Assembly (NCBI GenBank): GCA_016783505.1
Contig: JADHWK010000061.1
Coordinates: 1 to 13,004 of the forward strand
Length of the DNA: 13,004 nucleotides
DNA from: Candidatus Zhuqueibacterota bacterium
GTDB taxonomy: Bacteria > BS750m-G25
Direction: 5' to 3'
The translations under genes were made by a program, and so were the position numbers. This document shows, piece after piece, positions 3,036 to 12,669 of the stretch. The notes below the pieces were generated by a model. It was not told where the DNA came from and searched no databases. It was given only the letters and a program-made list of their open reading frames with translations. Each line of letters opens with the position of its first letter. Within the stretch, counting starts at the first letter, position 1.

Positions 3036-4064
3036 ATGAATAGCATAGCTGATGAATTAAATATTGAGAATGAATTTTATTTCCAATGGCATATCACGGA
3101 AAAATGCAATCTTAGGTGTAAACACTGTTATCACTCCAATTATACCTCTGCTAATGAATTGAATTTAAATGAATTAATTCTTATTGCCGATAAGATTAAC
3201 TCCACGCTAAGGAAATGGAACAAGGACGGTACGCTTTCCATTACCGGGGGAGAGCCTTTTATGGTTATGGACAAGCTCTTTCCCCTTTTGCAGCACATTA
3301 ATTCCCTCGAAACCATCAGCCATTTCGATCTCTTAACTAATGGATCTCTATTTAATGAAGGCATTCTGTCGGAGCTAAAGAAATTTAAAAAATTGAGACG
3401 GGTTCAAGTCTCTTTGGAGGCGGGAAATCAGAAACTGAATGACCAAATAAGAGGCAATGGTAGTTTTGGAAAAACTTTATCTGCAATTAGGCTGTTGAAA
3501 CAGAATGGTTTTCAAGTTGCAGTGATGATGACCCTCAGTCATATGAATAAAAAAGAAGTTGAGCCGCTTATTGAGCTTCTTAAAAAAGAGGGAGTTAATA
3601 CCTTTTCTGCCGAACGATTTATTCCCGAGGGGGCTGGAGCCGATCTTAAAGACGAGTTTCTTACCGCCGACGAGGTAAAGGAAGTATTTCAAAAGATCTA
3701 TTCCGTGGCAATGAAAGAGGATAAAATAAGGATTTTATTATACCGGCCTCTATTTGCCCTCCTTAACGGTAATGATCCAACTGTGGGTGCCTTGTGCTCA
3801 GTCGGTAATAATGCTCTCACTATCATGCATGACGGGACTATTTACCCTTGCCGGCGACTACCTATCCCCATCGGAAACGCCCTAACCGACAACTTTTACA
3901 AGGTGTGGTACACATCCGAGGTTTTGTGGAATGTCAGAAACCTGAAAAATATTAAAGGAAAATGCACTGACTGTGATCTTATACCGGTATGCCGGGGCTG
4001 CCGTGCCATGGCCTATGCCCTAACCGGCGATTACCTTGCTGAGGATCCACAATGCTGGAGATAA
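3036..4064 (+). CDS. Radical SAM/SPASM peptide maturase
   Basis: A 342-residue radical S-adenosylmethionine enzyme with a SPASM domain, the class that modifies RiPP precursor peptides (thioether or carbon-carbon crosslinks, epimerisation). C24-x3-C28-x2-C31 binds the SAM-coordinating [4Fe-4S] cluster, and TGGEP (70-74) is the SAM-binding motif. The SPASM part has C254-x12-G-x4-C272, then C310-x2-C313-x5-C319-x2-C322, and C340 next to the C-terminus. This follows the family pattern for two auxiliary clusters, with x2 rather than the common x3 in the last pair. AAGG at 3027-3030 supports the ATG. Its last codons overlap the PqqD-like gene. No separate N-terminal recognition domain is fused, which fits the stand-alone PqqD-like partner. 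The exact subfamily and reaction cannot be named from sequence alone. Confidence 0.92.
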   Translation: MNSIADELNIENEFYFQWHITEKCNLRCKHCYHSNYTSANELNLNELILIADKINSTLRKWNKDGTLSITGGEPFMVMDKLFPLLQHINSLETISHFDLLTNGSLFNEGILSELKKFKKLRRVQVSLEAGNQKLNDQIRGNGSFGKTLSAIRLLKQNGFQVAVMMTLSHMNKKEVEPLIELLKKEGVNTFSAERFIPEGAGADLKDEFLTADEVKEVFQKIYSVAMKEDKIRILLYRPLFALLNGNDPTVGALCSVGNNALTIMHDGTIYPCRRLPIPIGNALTDNFYKVWYTSEVLWNVRNLKNIKGKCTDCDLIPVCRGCRAMAYALTGDYLAEDPQCWR

Positions 4065-4357
4065 AACAGAACGATACTTTTGTATTAGAAGAAAATATCT
4101 TTCTTCAAAAGATTAGCGAACTTGGAAAATACTGGGTTTTTAATATTGATACAGGTGAACATTATACGCTTAACGAGACTTCTTATTGGATATTGGAACA
4201 GATAGCTGAGAATTTACCGGCAAAAAATATTTTAAAGGATTTTCTGGAAAACTTTGATGTGGACGAAAATCAGGCCAAGGTTGATTTTGGAGAAATATTA
4301 ACTGGCTTCCTAAAGGAAGGGATTATCAAAAGGAGGGTGAAAGATGAAAAAATATAA
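4052..4357 (+). CDS. PqqD-like RiPP recognition protein
   Basis: A 101-residue stand-alone protein resembling PqqD, the RiPP recognition element that binds a leader peptide and presents it to the radical SAM enzyme. Residues 28-46 (WVFNIDTGEHYTLNETSYW) give the beta-hairpin and the typical Y-x-LNET turn. The two following helices cover 47-68 and 73-92, ending FLKEGIIK as in the family. Its ATG lies inside the end of the radical SAM gene (13-bp overlap), implying translational coupling. Its own last 14 bases overlap the start of the small Cys-rich peptide gene. The position between maturase and peptide strongly supports the role. Confidence 0.85.
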   Translation: MLEIKQNDTFVLEENIFLQKISELGKYWVFNIDTGEHYTLNETSYWILEQIAENLPAKNILKDFLENFDVDENQAKVDFGEILTGFLKEGIIKRRVKDEKI

Positions 4358-4484
4358 AAAAAGAGCTTATGAAAAACCCATCCTAAAAAAAGAAAATACT
4401 ATGAATTTTCCAATTGAGATTATCAACTCTTCAGGCAAGAGGATCGTTTGCAGGCAGTGTTCCGGTTGTCATGGCTGTAGATGA
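4344..4484 (+). CDS. Cys-rich RiPP precursor peptide candidate (46 aa)
   Basis: A short gene encoding 46 residues. The N-terminal part is Lys-rich with a YEKPIL segment (9-14), a style common in radical-SAM peptide leaders. A middle part, NFPIEIINSSGKRIV, follows. The last eleven residues, CRQCSGCHGCR, contain C36, C39, C42 and C45 in C-x2-C-x2-C-x2-C spacing, plausibly the core that is modified. There is no GG cleavage site; S29-S30-G31 marks the junction region. AGGAGGGTG (4331-4339), four bases before ATG, is the strongest ribosome-binding site in the neighbourhood, suggesting high expression. It starts inside the PqqD-like gene. The alternative that it binds metal or a cluster directly through its four Cys cannot be excluded. 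I do not recognise a named precursor family. Confidence 0.82.
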   Translation: MKKYKKRAYEKPILKKENTMNFPIEIINSSGKRIVCRQCSGCHGCR

Positions 4485-4526: not shown

Positions 4527-5240
4527 ATGAAGGACTGCCAAAATTTTCAAATCCAAGGCAAACGCCGAACTTGCAATATATGGCTGTACCCTGAAGATAA
4601 TCTTCAACTAAAAAATCTCAACATTGATCCCTTTGACATCATTATCTGTGACGGCCCCTATGGCATTTTGGAAACGGAATGCGAGTGGGATGATTTTGAC
4701 CTGAATAGCAAAAATGGCCGTGAAAAATTCCGACAATACTACAGAAACCTCTTTGACGCCTGCCTGAAGCACCTAAAAAAAACCGGTTCTATCTTCATCT
4801 TCAATTATCCCGAAGGTGCCAGTCTTATCAAATCAGTGCTCGACGAGGAATACCCGGTTCATTTCAGACGCTGGATCACCTGGGTCTACGATAATCATTT
4901 TGACTTTGACCGCGGCGCCAATTTCCGACGCTCCCATGAGACAATTCTCTACTACACAAAGGAACCCGATGGCTTCATCTTTAAAGGAGCAGATATTCCA
5001 GATGTTTTCTTACATCCCATCATTAAAATTAGATCCAATTCTTTCAAAGACGGTGAAAAGCCTCTACCGGTCATCAGGGACCTATTAAATGCCACATTTG
5101 TCCCTGAAGGAAGGTTGCTCAGCTTGTTCACCGGCTCAGGAACTGACATAGTGGCTGCTTTGGAGTACGATATGGATGTGGTGGGTTTCGAATTCAATGT
5201 GTCCAATTTCAATATGTTAGTTGAACGAATTAAAAATTAA
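4527..5240 (+). CDS. DNA (N6-adenine/N4-cytosine) methyltransferase-like protein
   Basis: A 237-residue protein with the fold of beta-class DNA amino-methyltransferases. The catalytic motif comes first: IIICDGPYG (38-46). It is followed by helical strand-pairing elements, an R-x2-HE-T-I-L segment (134-141), and at the C-terminus the SAM-binding SLFTGSGTD (199-207) with acidic residues in VVGFEFN. The order IV-then-I defines the beta class. The catalytic motif reads D-G-P-Y where (D/N/S)-P-P-(Y/F/W) is the norm. The protein is small, leaving little room for a target-recognition domain, and no restriction endonuclease is adjacent. It starts 42 bases after the Cys-rich peptide gene with only AGGG (4513-4516) as a weak ribosome-binding site. 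It may be an orphan methyltransferase or part of a conflict system; peptide methylation is speculative. Confidence 0.78.
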   Translation: MKDCQNFQIQGKRRTCNIWLYPEDNLQLKNLNIDPFDIIICDGPYGILETECEWDDFDLNSKNGREKFRQYYRNLFDACLKHLKKTGSIFIFNYPEGASLIKSVLDEEYPVHFRRWITWVYDNHFDFDRGANFRRSHETILYYTKEPDGFIFKGADIPDVFLHPIIKIRSNSFKDGEKPLPVIRDLLNATFVPEGRLLSLFTGSGTDIVAALEYDMDVVGFEFNVSNFNMLVERIKN

Positions 5241-5297: not shown

Positions 5298-8200
5298 ATG
5301 ATGTGTAGGAAAAAAGAAGAGCTTTTTGCTTTTGAAAGTGCATCTATTGAACTCGATATTGCAATTGATGAGCAAGACGAAAAAAAGTGTAATCGCATTG
5401 TTTCCATTCAGAAAGGAGATATTGCTGCTATTAAAGACGCAAAGAACCCAAAACGATTTCGGGAAGCATTAATCAGAAAAGAAGGCCTACTTCCAATAAA
5501 TGTTAATGGAAAGAAGTGTTCCATTGATTTTTGGCATGTTTATTTCCTTGCCAAAAGAATTCGTGGAATACTTCAGAATGAAAATACTGACAGCCAATCA
5601 AAAAAACTTGACTGGGTTGTAGATATATTAATCAGGGAAGCTACATCTAAAATCCCCGATGATGAACAGTTTCAATACCTTCTGCTTATGCTTGAATTGG
5701 CTGCATGTACTATGGGCGAACAATCCCTGGGCTATGCTGAAAAGGCTCGAATAATTCTTGATGACATTAAAAAAAATACGCCCCCCTTTCTTGCCAATTG
5801 GAGTGATGAAGCCTATGAGGCTCTCATTCACTATAACCAAGGTGTTGCCAAACAACACATGGCTTTGCACGATAAGGCACTGAATGAGTATGACCAATCT
5901 ATTAAAAAAATTCATAAAGTTAAAAATCTTATAGATAAATCATGGTTAACCTACGTATACCATCCCGCAATCCTCCAGAAAGCGGAGGTTCTTATCAAGA
6001 TGCAGTTTTCTTATAATGCACTGACGGCGCTAAAAAAAATAGATAATGATAGTTCAAGTATTTTTCATCGACGACGACGCGAACTTCTCAAATTAACATG
6101 CTATATTGATCTATCAGATTGGGACCGATTTGATTCACACTGGAAAGACACGATAGACTGTGAAAAGAAACAATCTGTTTTTTGTGAAAACAGCAATTCC
6201 ATTTTTCAAACACCCATTCCCCGACAAAAGGATATTTTAAATTATCTGGACGCTAAAAAACCTCAACGATCCGTTAACAGAATCCCTTTTTCTTTGAGTT
6301 CTCAATATAACGCCCATGTACTGGATCGCGCGAAAGAACAATTAGCGCAGAAAGTTAAAGACATTGAAAATGAAAAAAATGTAGAAAAGAAGGGTAAGAA
6401 AATTAGAGAAATAAAGGATTATAAAATCTTTTCATTTCTTAAAGACTACATTAAGCAATGTGAGCATAATAGATTTGAGAAGCTGACGCTCGAAGAAGCG
6501 ATCCTGGATTATATTGAAATCGTTGGTAGGCTGATTACGAAAGATAAGGGATTTACAAAATCTCCAGATGATTCCTGTAGAGATGGACTAGAGGAATTAG
6601 TAAGTATTTTAAAAAACAATTCATTTATAAATGAGATAGATTCATTAGACAAGCCATTGGTGCAAAGTGAAACAGTTCAAAAAGCAAGAAAAGTTTCAGA
6701 AGAGATCAATGATTCATTCCTGAAGAAATGGTTCTGCGAAAAAGAAGATGGATTTGATGATTCACTTCCCGAGGACGTAAAAATATTTTTTAACTTTGAG
6801 AAAGAACTTATCGAAAAACTGATATTCTTGGAGAAACGGACAGATTTACTGCAAAGGATGTATGATAAAAGATCTTTGCAAGAGCGCGAAATGCTTCTCT
6901 CTACAATTTCTAAAAATAAATTTTGTACGAAAAATATTGAAGAATTAAAAACAAAGCTGATAATTTATAAAGATGCTAAAATTCATGATAACCAAACTAA
7001 TTGCCTTCAAGAAATTATAAAAGCCATAGACGGCAAACATCCCATTGCCAAGGATTTATTTACGTTGAAGTTCGGAGACTATGATAATGTTTTGAAACGG
7101 GAGGAACGAAAGTTTCAGAAACACACTACGGGGCGAAGCATCCAACCTCTGCCGGTAAGAGAAGAAAGTAAAAAAGAAAAGTCGCCAAGTGTCAATTATG
7201 TGGGGCTGCGTCGCTGGAACTCCTACACTCCGGAGCTTTCATTTTCCGTGGGTGGAGGCCACTTTGTGTTCCTGTCGGAGGGGGAAAAAAACAATAAGGG
7301 TAAAGTCGGTATTGGCATAGCTGTGGACCCAGGTTTTGATTTCATACGCAATTTTTTTCGCCAAGGTTTTACGCTTACCGATATTGATGTCATTCTTCTT
7401 ACCCATGGTCATCCTGATCACATAAGGGATTTCCCCGCCGTCGTTGAATTGTTGCATGAAAATAAAAAACGCGGAAACGGCCAGGAAAAGAAAATATATG
7501 CCGTTATGAGCCTTGGCTGTTATGAAAGGCTCGATGATTATATTGTAAGGGATCCTTTTAAACTCCTCTTTTATGATACCATCATCGTAGACATTGATCA
7601 GGGAAGAGAAAATATACAAGACAAAGAGATATGTTTCACATACGACTCGGGAAATAAGGATCATCAAGTAAAACTGATACCTCCTCAGCCAGACTCGCCC
7701 CCAAACGGGGGCAAGAAAATTAGCATACAGTATTTCCCAGCATTCCATACTGACCACAGCGAATCAGATAGCTATGGTTACATCATAAAATTAAAGGGCG
7801 GTGATGTATCAATCGGATTTACGGGCGACTCAAAGTGGTTTTATGGATACGCCAAAAAATTTGAGAAATGTGACATGATCTGCTCGCATATCGGATCAAT
7901 AGCAGAGCCCAAAAAGGATAAGCGACTCAAGGACTATACGACGGTTGGCAAGGTCGAAAGGCTCATGAGGACGAAAGGCCACCCCTATCTGTTCGGAGAA
8001 ATTCTCTTTTGGCAGGATTGGCTGAAAATATTCAAAGAGAACGGGAAAAAGACCTTAATGCTCATGTCAGAATTTGGCGAGGAGATGAAGGGGAAAATCC
8101 GGTTCGATCTGGCACAGAGGTTTAATATGCCAGCAAATGGAGGATGTTGTTGGACCGGTTTCGAGCCAGAGCCAAAGAGCGATTGGAACTGTAAGTATTA

Positions 8201-8513
8201 TGAGCATTGCAAAGAAGGGGCAAAAAACATGATGGTCATTCCCGTCGACGTGGGGCTTCGAATCAGCATTCCCCTCGGAAAAGGAGATGGTCAAAATGAG
8301 CAGAGTAACGGTTCTCATCCCCATAGGATACATTGTGTTGTGTGTGACGATTTTGTCGCCCCCGATGAGATCGATTATGAGGTATACAGCCACGAAGAAG
8401 CAATTTTCTATATCTGCAAAACTTGTCTCCGTTCTACATCCTTTGATGTAAGGCACTCGATATATCAAAAGTATCATGAGAATGGCCGTGAGATAGAGAA
8501 AGATGACTTATAG
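5298..8513 (+). CDS. Large helical-repeat / metallo-beta-lactamase-fold / zinc-binding protein
   Basis: A 1071-residue protein I cannot assign to a named family. Residues 1-680 are mostly helical. Segments near 172-210 and 215-250 look like tetratricopeptide repeats, and 335-375 is a Lys/Glu-rich probable coiled coil. From about 685 a metallo-beta-lactamase-fold hydrolase begins: THGHPDH gives H703-x-H705-x-D707-H708, with H817, D844 (in TGDS) and H864 as plausible later ligands, so the two-metal site looks intact. After it, C950-C951 with C965 and C971, and a ribbon of C1013-x2-C1016 with C1040-x2-C1043, suggest bound zinc. GAGGAGGG (5281-5288) nine bases before ATG supports the start. No signal peptide or membrane segment is seen. 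The first half is AT-rich relative to the rest. The substrate (nucleic acid, nucleotide, lipid or peptide) is unknown. Confidence 0.85.
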   Translation: MMCRKKEELFAFESASIELDIAIDEQDEKKCNRIVSIQKGDIAAIKDAKNPKRFREALIRKEGLLPINVNGKKCSIDFWHVYFLAKRIRGILQNENTDSQSKKLDWVVDILIREATSKIPDDEQFQYLLLMLELAACTMGEQSLGYAEKARIILDDIKKNTPPFLANWSDEAYEALIHYNQGVAKQHMALHDKALNEYDQSIKKIHKVKNLIDKSWLTYVYHPAILQKAEVLIKMQFSYNALTALKKIDNDSSSIFHRRRRELLKLTCYIDLSDWDRFDSHWKDTIDCEKKQSVFCENSNSIFQTPIPRQKDILNYLDAKKPQRSVNRIPFSLSSQYNAHVLDRAKEQLAQKVKDIENEKNVEKKGKKIREIKDYKIFSFLKDYIKQCEHNRFEKLTLEEAILDYIEIVGRLITKDKGFTKSPDDSCRDGLEELVSILKNNSFINEIDSLDKPLVQSETVQKARKVSEEINDSFLKKWFCEKEDGFDDSLPEDVKIFFNFEKELIEKLIFLEKRTDLLQRMYDKRSLQEREMLLSTISKNKFCTKNIEELKTKLIIYKDAKIHDNQTNCLQEIIKAIDGKHPIAKDLFTLKFGDYDNVLKREERKFQKHTTGRSIQPLPVREESKKEKSPSVNYVGLRRWNSYTPELSFSVGGGHFVFLSEGEKNNKGKVGIGIAVDPGFDFIRNFFRQGFTLTDIDVILLTHGHPDHIRDFPAVVELLHENKKRGNGQEKKIYAVMSLGCYERLDDYIVRDPFKLLFYDTIIVDIDQGRENIQDKEICFTYDSGNKDHQVKLIPPQPDSPPNGGKKISIQYFPAFHTDHSESDSYGYIIKLKGGDVSIGFTGDSKWFYGYAKKFEKCDMICSHIGSIAEPKKDKRLKDYTTVGKVERLMRTKGHPYLFGEILFWQDWLKIFKENGKKTLMLMSEFGEEMKGKIRFDLAQRFNMPANGGCCWTGFEPEPKSDWNCKYYEHCKEGAKNMMVIPVDVGLRISIPLGKGDGQNEQSNGSHPHRIHCVVCDDFVAPDEIDYEVYSHEEAIFYICKTCLRSTSFDVRHSIYQKYHENGREIEKDDL

Positions 8514-9303
8514 AGAACCCAATCTGGCCGCTGCCGCTATCGGGCTTATTCGCGCAGTTAATGATTCTCTTGAACTTGGGAGAAGGGCAATCCCCTCTTA
8601 TGTTTTGAGCTATGAAGGTCTAACTTCATCTCTTGTAGCTGATGAAGAACTCCGCCAAACTCAGAAGGATGATGGGGGCTGGAATAATGTTCGTGACACG
8701 GCACTGCTTGCGGCACTATGTCACCTTCGCAGATCACTCCAGGACTGTTACCAGTCTGCTCTTTCCTGGCTTACAGAAGTCCGAAAAGACAATGGGGAGT
8801 GGGGTTTAACTGAACGTGATACGAGCCGCATCCCAGTTACTGGGCTTTTGCTTTATCTCCTCCCCGAACTTTCCGACCAAAAGGTGGTAAACTGGCTCAA
8901 AAATGAATGGAGGAAGGATTTTGAGGGTGCCACCAGACTTACTTACAAGGGGGCCTTCTTCTTGTTAGGATTGTCCGCGTCAAGGGTAGCCATTGATGAT
9001 TGCCCGTTGATTGAGGAAACTTACTCTTTCCTGCATGCTGAACAAAACCAAGACGGCGGGTTTGGGCCTTGGAAGGACCATCCCATTGGGAGTGAACCCT
9101 GGTCAACCGGAATTGTGCTGCTCGGTTTGGTTTCTTATCCTGATCTGACAGATCGAAGCGTTATAGAAAGGGCCGTCAACTGGCTGGCTGAGAATCAATT
9201 GCCCAATGGCTTGTGGGCCTATCACTATATTGAAGAAGGCTCTGCCTATGCATACTGGGGATTGGTGGAAGCATTAAAATATTTATCGAAAGAGTCAAAC
9301 TGA
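8503..9303 (+). CDS. Squalene-cyclase/prenyltransferase-type repeat protein (alpha/alpha toroid)
   Basis: A 266-residue protein built of repeats seen in squalene-hopene cyclases, prenyltransferases and related alpha/alpha toroids. QW-type motifs occur at residues 54-60 (QKDDGGW), 92-100 (VRKDNGEW), 180-187 (EQNQDGGF) and 230-238 (ENQLPNGLW). It is less than half the length of a true triterpene cyclase. The segment aligning with the catalytic DxDDTA reads NVRDTA (62-67), so two of the three acids are missing and class II cyclase chemistry is doubtful. No Cys/His metal set of protein prenyltransferase beta subunits is evident. It overlaps the preceding gene by 11 bases and shares one base with the next (TGATG), so all three are probably translated together. 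It may be a binding or scaffold protein, or an atypical enzyme. Confidence 0.78.
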   Translation: MTYREPNLAAAAIGLIRAVNDSLELGRRAIPSYVLSYEGLTSSLVADEELRQTQKDDGGWNNVRDTALLAALCHLRRSLQDCYQSALSWLTEVRKDNGEWGLTERDTSRIPVTGLLLYLLPELSDQKVVNWLKNEWRKDFEGATRLTYKGAFFLLGLSASRVAIDDCPLIEETYSFLHAEQNQDGGFGPWKDHPIGSEPWSTGIVLLGLVSYPDLTDRSVIERAVNWLAENQLPNGLWAYHYIEEGSAYAYWGLVEALKYLSKESN

Positions 9304-11117
9304 TGTGTGGAATTTGTGGAATATATAACGAAAAGAACTTAAGCACAGTAACCGCCATGCTTGAATCTATTCACCATCGTGGGCCTGACTCTTTTAGGAC
9401 TATGCTATTTGGAAAACACTCTCTGGGAGAATGCGGGCTAAATATTGTTAGAAGTAAAGACGATACGTTACCTTTGATAGATGAGGAAAATGAGATAGCC
9501 CTGCTTTTTAATGGGGAGATTTACAATTATCAAGAGATCAAAGATGAACTAGTAAAGGAAGGATATATTTTCACTTCCAATACAGACTCAGAAGTGATTA
9601 TCCCTCTTTATAGAAAATACGGGAAGGATTTCGTGAAGCATCTGAAGGGGATGTTTGCAATTGTCATTATAGATAAAGAGCAGATTATCCTGGCCCGTGA
9701 TAAGTTCGGTATTAAGCCCCTTTATTATTATCAGATAGGTGACAGGCTTATCTTTGGTTCCGAGATAAAGGCCTTGCTCCAGTATCCTGATGTTCCGGCT
9801 GACCTGGACCTGGAATCATTAAAAGAGCTAATGGTCTTCGGGTACATCTTTTCTCCTGACCGAACGCTGCTGAAAGATATTTACCAGGTTTCTCCCGGAT
9901 CGGTTGTTATTTTTGGTGGGAATAGGATTTCGGAACACAAATATTATCAAATCCCCACTCCCTTTTATCAGGATAACGGGAATATCGTCTATGAAGATTC
10001 TATCCTCCAATTGACAGCGAGTTTGCTAAAGACTTTTGAATTATTCCATGATCACGGGGATCAGGAAAAGGGCATATATCTGTCAGGTGGTCTGGATTCC
10101 ACACTAATGGCGGTTCTGTCGAAGGAAGTTATAAACAAGCCCATCCACACTTACACCCTGTATGATTCCGAAGATGCCCCGGATTTTAATTATGCCCGGA
10201 GAGCCGCAAGGGCTATAGGGTCCAAGCATCATGAATTTCTCGTCACGCCTGAAGATTACTTTAAAGAACTACCCCATTTTGTGTATCACTATGAAAATCT
10301 CATCGCAGGTGGCGTATTTGATATTCAGGGCGGTATAGCCTTTCAGATTCTCTCAGAGCATATTTCTGACTTTCACAAGGTGGCCTTTACCGGTGAAGGG
10401 GCAGATGAACTCTTTGGAGGGTATTACTGGATTTATACCCATCCATTGGGTTTCTCCGACAGAATCAGAGAAAGGGCCTCTAAGCTTCCTGCCTATTCCA
10501 GAGTAAGGAAGGTCGTCCAGGATATTTTCCCCCCACCTGAGGACGAAGCAACCTATAGGAAGAATCTGTTCCATATACTTATGGGAGCAGGTCTTGCAAA
10601 TTACCATTTATGGAGTGTGGACAGGTCCTGTGGTTCCTTTGGATTCGAAGCAAGGCCTCCTTACCTATATGATGATCTTGCCGAATATGCCCTGTCACTT
10701 CCTATTGACTTCAAGGTCTCTGGTAAATCGATCACCAAGAAGATACTTAAAGACGTGGCGCAGCCTTTTTTCAGGAAACATGGCTTGGAAGAAATTTTAA
10801 CAAGAAAAAAATACGGAATGCCTGCTGCCATTGACGGTATAAGCCCCAAAATAAGACGACAGATCAATAATCTCGTCCCGTACGAAACTATTGAGCAACA
10901 CCCTTTCAGGGATTACATCAAAGACGCTGTGGATGTCTTAATGTTTGACCTGTTTTATTACTTCGTAATCCAAAAGCGGGGAAAGTTCGAGACCGGATTT
11001 TCAATAGATGAGTTTTATAAAGGTCGCATAAATGAAGATATGTATGATCAGCAAATATCCGCCCATTCAGGGGGGAATTTCCGCCAAGACCTACTGGTTG
11101 GCACAGGGCCTTGCTGA
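9303..11117 (+). CDS. asnB: Glutamine-hydrolysing asparagine synthetase family protein (AsnB-like)
   Basis: A 604-residue amidotransferase. The N-terminal glutaminase domain has the nucleophile Cys2 directly after Met, Arg50, N70-G71 and D95, so ammonia release from glutamine should work. The synthetase domain has the ATP pyrophosphatase loop SGGLDST (261-267) and GEGADELFGG (364-373), then FEARPPYLYDD and the KKYGMP segment. All expected catalytic motifs are present. The start is certain because Cys2 must follow Met. Homologues in gene clusters for polysaccharides or peptides amidate or condense substrates other than aspartate, so free asparagine synthesis is not assured. The last 28 residues (577-604) are read across the start of the glycosyltransferase gene in another frame; they may be a recent extension caused by a frame change. 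Confidence 0.92.
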   Translation: MCGICGIYNEKNLSTVTAMLESIHHRGPDSFRTMLFGKHSLGECGLNIVRSKDDTLPLIDEENEIALLFNGEIYNYQEIKDELVKEGYIFTSNTDSEVIIPLYRKYGKDFVKHLKGMFAIVIIDKEQIILARDKFGIKPLYYYQIGDRLIFGSEIKALLQYPDVPADLDLESLKELMVFGYIFSPDRTLLKDIYQVSPGSVVIFGGNRISEHKYYQIPTPFYQDNGNIVYEDSILQLTASLLKTFELFHDHGDQEKGIYLSGGLDSTLMAVLSKEVINKPIHTYTLYDSEDAPDFNYARRAARAIGSKHHEFLVTPEDYFKELPHFVYHYENLIAGGVFDIQGGIAFQILSEHISDFHKVAFTGEGADELFGGYYWIYTHPLGFSDRIRERASKLPAYSRVRKVVQDIFPPPEDEATYRKNLFHILMGAGLANYHLWSVDRSCGSFGFEARPPYLYDDLAEYALSLPIDFKVSGKSITKKILKDVAQPFFRKHGLEEILTRKKYGMPAAIDGISPKIRRQINNLVPYETIEQHPFRDYIKDAVDVLMFDLFYYFVIQKRGKFETGFSIDEFYKGRINEDMYDQQISAHSGGNFRQDLLVGTGPC

Positions 11118-12147
11118 AAGAGGTATTGAGACCCATGTAGTCACCAACGGAAATTGTGTAGAGAGCGAATATCGTATTGAGGATACCTCTCCTAAACCGC
11201 ATCCTAACCTGCATATCCATTTCATAGATCCTGACCTCCCATGGCATATCCCTTATTCTGACTTGTATGTCCCAAGGTTATTGGACAAGGCCCTTCAAGT
11301 AACCCGCGAAAACCAAGTTGCTCTCATAGACACAGGATACCTCATCCCGTATGGAATCGTGGGATATCTCCTTTCTGAGATGACAGGAATCCCCTATGTC
11401 TTGCGGCATGGCGGCAGTGACCTCGAGAAGTTCTTCCGACAGGGAGTATTTAGTGATCTTCTGAAAAAGGTGATTCAAAGCGCGGCGGCCATCATCACCG
11501 ATAGGCACAACAAGGAGGTCTTTCAGAGTCTCAATTCGCGCCTGTACATAGTGCCCAGGTATATCCCCGACGAGAGATATTTCAGGCCTTCCATATCACC
11601 ACATGACACGCCAACCTTCGCCTATATAGGGAAGATTAACTATCACTGGAGGCATAAAAGCCTACACAGAATTGCGGAAATATTTGATGGGCTTAAAAGG
11701 GACTACCGCTTGATTTTTGTTGGTCAAGGCAAGGGATTCGAGGACTTTTCGGAATTCGTTTCGGGATATGGCCTGAGGGGATTTGAGTTTCGCCAATTCG
11801 TCCATCCTGCGAATATGCCTGGTTTGCTCAATGAGATAGATTTCCTGATTTGCTTTACAAAAGACAACCCCATCAAAGACTTTATGAATATTTTCTCCGA
11901 AGCCCTGTGGTCGGGAGTCCGGGTGCTCACTGATGATACAATGGATTTGGACACCTATACGGAACATATTGAACTGGCTGATCAGGCTCAGATAGTCAAT
12001 CTGCCCATAGATGATGTTGGAGCGACACAATCCAAAATCATTGATATGATAAGAGACTGGGACGGGCCATCTCGATACAACAACAAATTGAAATACGACT
12101 TCAATAGATATTTGGACGCAAATTTGGAGATATATCATCGGATTTGA
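11032..12147 (+). CDS. GT4-type glycosyltransferase
   Basis: A 371-residue GT-B-fold glycosyltransferase that would transfer a sugar from a nucleotide-sugar donor, probably at the cytoplasmic face. The N-terminal acceptor domain opens MKICMISKYPPIQGGIS, the usual first strand and Gly-rich loop. The donor domain begins near residue 195 with FAYIGKIN and contains a VGQGKG segment. In the family E-x7-E motif the second Glu is E290 (IFSEALWSG), but the first is replaced by K282. AAAGG (11019-11023) precedes ATG at good spacing, and an in-frame TAA directly abuts the ATG, so the gene cannot start further upstream. It overlaps the AsnB-like gene by 86 bases. The acceptor is unknown: a surface polysaccharide, a lipid or the pathway's peptide are all possible. 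Confidence 0.85.
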   Translation: MKICMISKYPPIQGGISAKTYWLAQGLAERGIETHVVTNGNCVESEYRIEDTSPKPHPNLHIHFIDPDLPWHIPYSDLYVPRLLDKALQVTRENQVALIDTGYLIPYGIVGYLLSEMTGIPYVLRHGGSDLEKFFRQGVFSDLLKKVIQSAAAIITDRHNKEVFQSLNSRLYIVPRYIPDERYFRPSISPHDTPTFAYIGKINYHWRHKSLHRIAEIFDGLKRDYRLIFVGQGKGFEDFSEFVSGYGLRGFEFRQFVHPANMPGLLNEIDFLICFTKDNPIKDFMNIFSEALWSGVRVLTDDTMDLDTYTEHIELADQAQIVNLPIDDVGATQSKIIDMIRDWDGPSRYNNKLKYDFNRYLDANLEIYHRI

Positions 12148-12159
12148 ACAAACTTGGTG

Positions 12160-12669
12160 ATGAAAATTCTTATAACGGGCATCGGCAATATCGGGAAAAG
12201 CACCCTAAGGGAGATGGTGGCTCACAAATTCCCCGATCGGGTTATTCAAATAGATATGGACTACCATTCCCATGAGGACATCCCGGAATCCTCTGACAAG
12301 GTTATACTGGTTGAAGACGTGCATGGTCTGGAAAGGAATCCTGAGCAATATGACAAAATAATTTATCTTATGCCACCGTCAAATCACTTCATCTTGTGGC
12401 TGAAGAGGGCTTGGGCATGGTTTTCCGGTGGAATAGTTGATTTATCTGCCCCAAAAGGTATTAATAAGCACTGTGCATTTTCCAACATCCCGATAATTGT
12501 GAAGATAGTGTTGAGGAATATCGTGTCGGCCAGGCGATGGGTCCTGGGCGATATGGAGACCATAAAGAGGAAATTCGAGGACAAAACCGTCATAGTTGAT
12601 ACTGTATCTGACGGCTTTCAGGAAATTGGAAAATTACTTTCACGAAATGGGAGTGAGGAAATTATATGA
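12160..12669 (+). CDS. Small P-loop NTPase/kinase-like protein
   Basis: A 169-residue protein with a Walker A motif at its very N-terminus, GIGNIGKST (residues 7-15), preceded by the strand MKILIT. VILVEDVHG near 48-56 could supply the acidic Walker B. The size fits small nucleotide-binding kinases, but I do not recognise the family. A Trp-rich stretch (LWLKRAWAWFSGG) lies in the middle. TTG (12154) and GTG (12157) in the same frame are alternative starts; ATG at 12160 is chosen because it places the first strand normally. It begins 12 bases after the glycosyltransferase gene and has no strong ribosome-binding site, suggesting coupled expression. It is the last intact gene of the run. Confidence 0.7.
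   Translation: MKILITGIGNIGKSTLREMVAHKFPDRVIQIDMDYHSHEDIPESSDKVILVEDVHGLERNPEQYDKIIYLMPPSNHFILWLKRAWAWFSGGIVDLSAPKGINKHCAFSNIPIIVKIVLRNIVSARRWVLGDMETIKRKFEDKTVIVDTVSDGFQEIGKLLSRNGSEEII

Follow-up and report, generated by a model that had tools for sequence, protein, structure and literature searches.

Does a short open reading frame (ORF) placed behind a radical SAM (rSAM)/SPASM gene and a PqqD-like gene encode the substrate of these proteins, and, if so, where else does this substrate occur? The question is raised by the following genes and signals in a stretch of DNA of 13,004 nucleotides, which was analysed as a whole and is hereafter called the window.

3036..4064, + strand: radical SAM/SPASM maturase, 342 aa (CNLRCKHC motif; PF04055, E 3e-21; SPASM PF13186, E 8.5e-8)
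4052..4357, + strand: PqqD-like discrete RiPP recognition element, 101 aa (PF05402, E 3e-9)
4331..4339, + strand: ribosome-binding site of the peptide gene, AGGAGGGTG (read directly from the sequence)
4344..4484, + strand: putative precursor peptide gene, 46 aa, MKKYKKRAYEKPILKKENTMNFPIEIINSSGKRIVCRQCSGCHGCR (leader Y9-x-K-P12; core C36-x-Q-C-S-x-C-H-G-C45-R)
4527..5240, + strand: N6/N4 DNA methyltransferase, 237 aa (PF01555, E 1.5e-19; variable, found elsewhere only in L054/L140 and L157)
5298..8513, + strand: large metallo-beta-lactamase (MBL) protein, 1071 aa (PF12706, E 6e-12; THSHPDH; C-terminal Cys pairs)
8503..9303, + strand: squalene-cyclase-like alpha/alpha toroid, 266 aa (PF13243, E 3.6e-8; all 7 loci compared)
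9303..11117, + strand: asparagine-synthase-type amidotransferase, 604 aa (PF00733, E 3e-44; PF13537, E 5e-39; all 7 loci)
11032..12147, + strand: GT4-type glycosyltransferase, 371 aa, MKICMISKYPPIQGGIS... (weak Pfam GT4 matches; homologues in all 7 loci)
12160..12669, + strand: small P-loop protein, MKILITGIGNIGKST... (a homologue is found in L143, and L144 has a similar domain in fusion with the MBL protein)

The peptide gene and its conservation in cellular relatives

The AGGAGGGTG site is followed by a spacer of 4 nt and the ATG of the peptide gene, as the initial annotation had read it, and an AGGAGG-like site is retained at this place in several relatives. The first 14 nt of the ORF are shared with the 3' end of the PqqD gene (4052-4357). 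Within the genome from which the window comes, the tail pattern has a single occurrence. The placement of a 46-residue ORF behind the rSAM/SPASM and PqqD genes is in agreement with the coordinates, the Pfam matches and the relatives. Selenocysteine read-through of the TGA-TCA-TGA at the end of the peptide was also considered and was ruled out because the stop codon varies: the relatives stop with TAA or TGA there, and nothing is conserved beyond it.

Relatives of the maturase were sought in one genome per species, which gave nine loci (L051-L059). In L051-L057 (maturases 53-86% identical to that of the window; labelled as Deltaproteobacteria, Thermodesulfovibrionales, Desulfobacterales, Dehalococcoidia and Firmicutes; all metagenome-assembled genomes (MAGs)), an ORF of 42-54 aa follows the PqqD gene and has C-x-Q-C-S-x-C-H-G-C at its end, with terminal CSR replacing CR in L053. 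L058 and L059, whose sequences do not differ in the stretch compared, have the variant tail ...WCFGCTNCNCN and a maturase of 44% identity. Whole-genome searches added L139 and L154, which have the same rSAM-PqqD-peptide arrangement, and a further peptide copy (L157) whose sequence covers no genes upstream of it. We tested whether homologues of the rSAM/PqqD pair miss the ORF, and all close homologues (L051-L057, L139 and L154) have a homologous peptide directly behind PqqD; it is kept at the same position down to 50-55% maturase identity. The operon-bearing relatives belong to several phyla of anaerobes and are mostly MAGs, and the architecture proposed at the outset, a leader, a linker and a Cys core, has the same layout across them. 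The synonymous-site pattern was also tested, and selection at the protein level was seen between the window and L051 (pS 0.61, pN 0.06), where each core Cys codon switches freely between TGC and TGT.

The ORF at 4344-4484 is thereby confirmed as a real gene. Its shortness might suggest a chance ORF or an annotation artefact, a reading that is refuted by pS far above pN together with the presence in all close relatives, and to which we give practically no weight. From these comparisons, the leader Y-x-K-P and the core C-x-Q-C-S-x-C-H-G-C are judged to be under purifying selection. A short gene conserved beside rSAM/SPASM and PqqD genes, the mark of a precursor of a ribosomally synthesized and post-translationally modified peptide (RiPP), is what was found, and the ORF is likely to be the substrate gene of the rSAM/SPASM and PqqD operon.

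Cellular copies are rare. In a sample of one phylum 2 of 395 genomes had the peptide, both with the operon, and in a class sample the single positive of 294 was the query genome itself. A second copy with the exact tail was found in none of nine operon-bearing genomes, and a direct search for the peptide in 98 unrelated genomes gave matches at chance level only. In more distant rSAM relatives, taken from random genomes (L003-L031, identity 40% or less), the flanks examined showed no comparable Cys-tail peptide, and these relatives appear to be members of other families.

Comparison with known systems

In an alignment of the maturase with nine relatives (A6), the cluster Cys residues are invariant, including the seven-Cys SPASM set. 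The best NCBIfam model was TIGR04340, the ACGX maturase, with 198 bits, the cut-off being 400, and the SbtA/SbtM selenobiotic model gave 164 bits against 350. For the PqqD-like protein, the best NCBIfam matches were lasso PqqD models, below the cut-off (28.4 of 70 bits). The peptide itself matched no family in Pfam, NCBIfam, PHROG or PADLOC (best NCBIfam match at chance level, E 0.058), so that the earlier statement that the tail has no named family holds in these collections; the string CHGCR was absent from relevant papers in the open-access literature searched. As a separate observation, residues 310-341 of the maturase (SPASM region) read C-x2-C-x5-CRGCR, like the CHGCR tail of the peptide, which may be coincidence.

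The ACGX system (AcgA/AcgM), of which the maturase model is the closest, also has a Cys-rich substrate adjoining an rSAM/SPASM enzyme; however, the AcgA example is a ACGTACGAG repeat without a YxKP leader and with no PqqD gene annotated alongside, whereas the window peptide has no ACGX repeat. Sactipeptide and ranthipeptide systems (AlbA, PapB) share the rSAM/SPASM enzyme and a Cys-containing C-terminal core, but the window differs from them in a maturase that reaches no curated model, in a discrete PqqD and in the near-invariant CxQCSxCHGCR core. Lasso systems are similar in their discrete PqqD (the best models being lasso B1) and their AsnB-type enzyme, and the YxxPxL leader of window-type peptides presumably resembles lasso leaders. 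In contrast to them, the window has an rSAM enzyme and a Cys-rich core, its PqqD and AsnB proteins stay under the lasso cut-offs, and no B2 peptidase was among the Pfam matches of the window genes scanned; the combination that defines a lasso system, with B1, B2 peptidase and cyclase all exceeding their curated thresholds, was not found. The RRE-Finder article (PMC7470986) describes a lasso-like discrete RRE that co-occurs with rSAM enzymes; no mention of the present core and operon, or of precursors carried by phages, was found there.

Downstream genes of the operon

Seven cellular loci have in common rSAM, PqqD, the peptide, the squalene-cyclase-like toroid, the AsnB-type amidotransferase and the GT4-type glycosyltransferase. 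Zero to two variable genes lie between the peptide and the toroid: the window and L140 have the DNA methyltransferase and the MBL protein there, L142 has MBL, L141 has a gene for a 583-aa protein, and L053, L143 and L144 have none. The predicted structure of the toroid has a 12-helix fold (pLDDT 91), and its nearest PDB entries are class II terpene cyclases (TM 0.65-0.71); an invariant DxDD motif was absent among the aligned relatives, and therefore no catalytic role can be named. The amidotransferase exceeds the TIGR01536 cut-off and is below that of the lasso cyclase (134.6 of 525 bits). The large MBL gene is variable, occurring also in L054 and L056 (alignment A4). Because a P-loop domain and the large MBL protein are joined in one gene in L144 (8177-11767), the P-loop gene (12160-12669) and the MBL gene (5298-8513) of the window probably belong together.

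In L143 (7135-10652), an HD protein with an HD_assoc domain and a PHP phosphoesterase are encoded between the GT4 and AsnB genes. In L141 (13733-15436; G102), operon neighbours resemble the large and small terminase subunits by eye, the large one having no Pfam match, and a prophage may adjoin this operon. As regards a possible location in defence islands, the surroundings of the operons are mixed.

Copies of the precursor in phage contigs

The IMG/VR database was searched with the pattern C-x-Q-C-S-x-C-H-G-C. Matches were found on 72 contigs, of which about 67 were judged real, corresponding to 53 distinct peptides (one of them, L080, apparently a chance match). The contigs are largely those of tailed phages, not every one being proven viral (e.g., the upstream neighbour in L060 has no PHROG match). 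The phage peptides are short, end at CHGCR or nearly so, and nearly all have a leader of the Y-x-K-P type; the spacing from this leader to the first Cys is 24-28, mostly 27 (starts were called by a heuristic, and a few peptides have YxKP further upstream). The linker between leader and core varies widely, with the docking motif retained. When the tail pattern was relaxed at two positions, one further true member was obtained, the rest being chance matches or another short ORF. The latter, seen in the viral contigs L148, L149 and L153, is a different recurring ORF ending VNCSQCYGCNGCQ, which lacks the YxKP leader and stands outside the precursor family. A search of isolate phages and plasmids for the peptide gave no real match.

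PHROGs matches among the flanking phage proteins included several families, unrelated to one another, of terminases, portals and head proteins. A terminase, portal or head gene lies within 5 kb in at least 24 of the 53 phage loci and within 1.5 kb in at least 17, these counts being lower bounds since clusters with fewer than three loci did not enter them. On the same contigs, genes at a distance of over 4 kb from the peptide formed a mixed list led by DNA methyltransferases, with a weaker packaging signal (a rough control, with per-family counts only). The flanking large genes were co-directional with the peptide in 82 of 90 cases.

None of the operon genes was found in the examined phage DNA by tblastn with the window proteins, and a maturase profile built from nine sequences found no relative on viral contigs, a search confined to its two seed patterns, which the variant operon described below escaped. 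In 32 whole phage records (18-66 kb), neither PqqD nor a maturase of the precursor's family was present, and a single rSAM domain exceeded the cut-off, in a 271-aa frame. Because many phage records are fragments, the absence of the enzymes is strong only in aggregate. The peptide has been kept along with its operon in several phyla, and diverse tailed phages carry the precursor without the maturase.

Two loci stand apart. The variant tail CFGCTNCNCN was found in one 133-kb IMG/VR contig (L145). This contig is classed as viral, and the variant operon on it (rSAM, PqqD, a peptide ending KWCFGCTNCNCN and toroid) may be part of the host flank of a provirus. Conversely, L158 (G1007:C63, 5337-5465) is an orphan peptide whose subtype is phage-like (GGRFCLQCSGCHGCR) and which was found in a cellular genome bin that lacks the specific maturase (the bin's best rSAM relative scored 146 bits, compared with 635 for a true maturase); the contig of this peptide, of 5.7 kb, may be viral or misbinned.

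Host and phage peptides resemble each other by subtype. Outside the 11-residue tail, L051 is 88% identical to phage L099 over 32 residues (a head-tail adaptor/portal gene being near the latter), and the corresponding values are 70% for L139-L073, 65% for L057-L123, 56% for L056-L107 and 52% for L055-L106. Such a match of leaders would be expected if phage peptides must fit the host recognition protein, or if they derive from hosts, and does not separate the two. No phage contig was linked to an operon-carrying host, and none of the nine operon genomes had both the operon and a prophage copy; these two points count against the reading proposed below, as do the origin of most cellular loci from MAGs and the orphan copy L158.

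Proposed pathway and alternative explanations

We consider, with a probability of roughly 0.6, that the product of the ORF is the precursor peptide of rSAM-modified RiPPs that form a new family, a precursor which phages carry too and which host enzymes would mature in trans. As suggested by its conservation, the leader Y-x-K-P-x-[L/I/F], which lies some 27 residues ahead of the first Cys of the core, would dock on the discrete PqqD. The rSAM/SPASM enzyme would then modify the core C-x-Q-C-S-x-C-H-G-C-R, most likely, from its family, via the Cys sulfurs. Enzymes of this rSAM/SPASM group commonly form thioether links, and thioether crosslinks of the ranthipeptide or sactipeptide style in the present product are a guess at most. 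Judging from synteny, the toroid protein, the AsnB-type amidotransferase and the glycosyltransferase may act on or use the product. The phage copy would be a genuine substrate, from which the infected host would make the same product for the phage late in infection. The in-trans substrate role is the most likely one because the phage copies retain both the docking motif and an exact core and are similar to individual host subtypes. For the wider statement, that phages of anaerobes carry an enzyme-free precursor, often in the packaging module, that host rSAM/PqqD matures it, and that one peptide is shared or fought over, we see an even chance.

A quite different role of the phage peptide would follow if the host operon were an anti-phage system: the peptide would then be a counter-measure that imitates the substrate and ties up PqqD/rSAM, or takes the place of the host peptide, and thereby blocks or redirects the defence product. 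The orphan copies are indeed phage-borne and subtype-matched, some operons include DNA methyltransferase, MBL or HD genes or lie near restriction/helicase or toxin-antitoxin-like genes, and intracellular lanthipeptides with anti-phage activity have been reviewed (PMC12360287). Those peptides are RiPPs tied to phage infection as well; however, their enzymes and core are others, and there the host makes the peptide, whereas here phages carry the precursor. PADLOC found no matching defence system in the operon, only superfamily-level viperin and methyltransferase matches; the operons of L053 and L142 lie among housekeeping genes; and the phage copies are often amid late structural genes, which is odd for a fast-acting counter-measure. 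Moreover, a pure decoy needs no exact core, and the exact phage core therefore speaks for a genuine substrate rather than a decoy; some of this exactness comes from the search pattern itself, a concern that is softened because the relaxed pattern gained one true member only. We regard the anti-phage explanation as rather unlikely, while it deserves the most attention after maturation in trans.

Four evenly spaced Cys residues (C-x2-C-x2-C-x2-C) with a His make a plausible metal site, and since the phage copies have no enzymes and adjoin packaging genes, the tail might be a small metal-binding module, unmodified in the phage, e.g., in packaging, which the host operon recruited. This is improbable in our view, as the phages keep the YxKP leader and its spacing, which would be superfluous for an unmodified metal site, and the packaging modules of the carriers are very different. 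Slightly less probable still is that the phage peptide is cargo that widens the host's repertoire of secreted bacteriocins or signals; the widely varying linkers with a retained docking motif would suit it, but the core hardly varies, whereas bacteriocin cores do, and neither an exporter nor a protease was seen beside the peptide in phages.

Implications

The locus offers an rSAM-RiPP system that is small and open to testing and has a near-invariant core. The link to phages is unexpected: dozens of unrelated uncultivated phages retain one precursor without its enzymes, often beside packaging genes, which suggests that viruses borrow or exploit the modifying machinery of their hosts. A stand-alone phage substrate for a host natural-product pathway was not found described in the open-access literature searched. 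If the host does mature it, the virus would rely on a natural-product pathway of its host, or disturb it, through such a stand-alone substrate.
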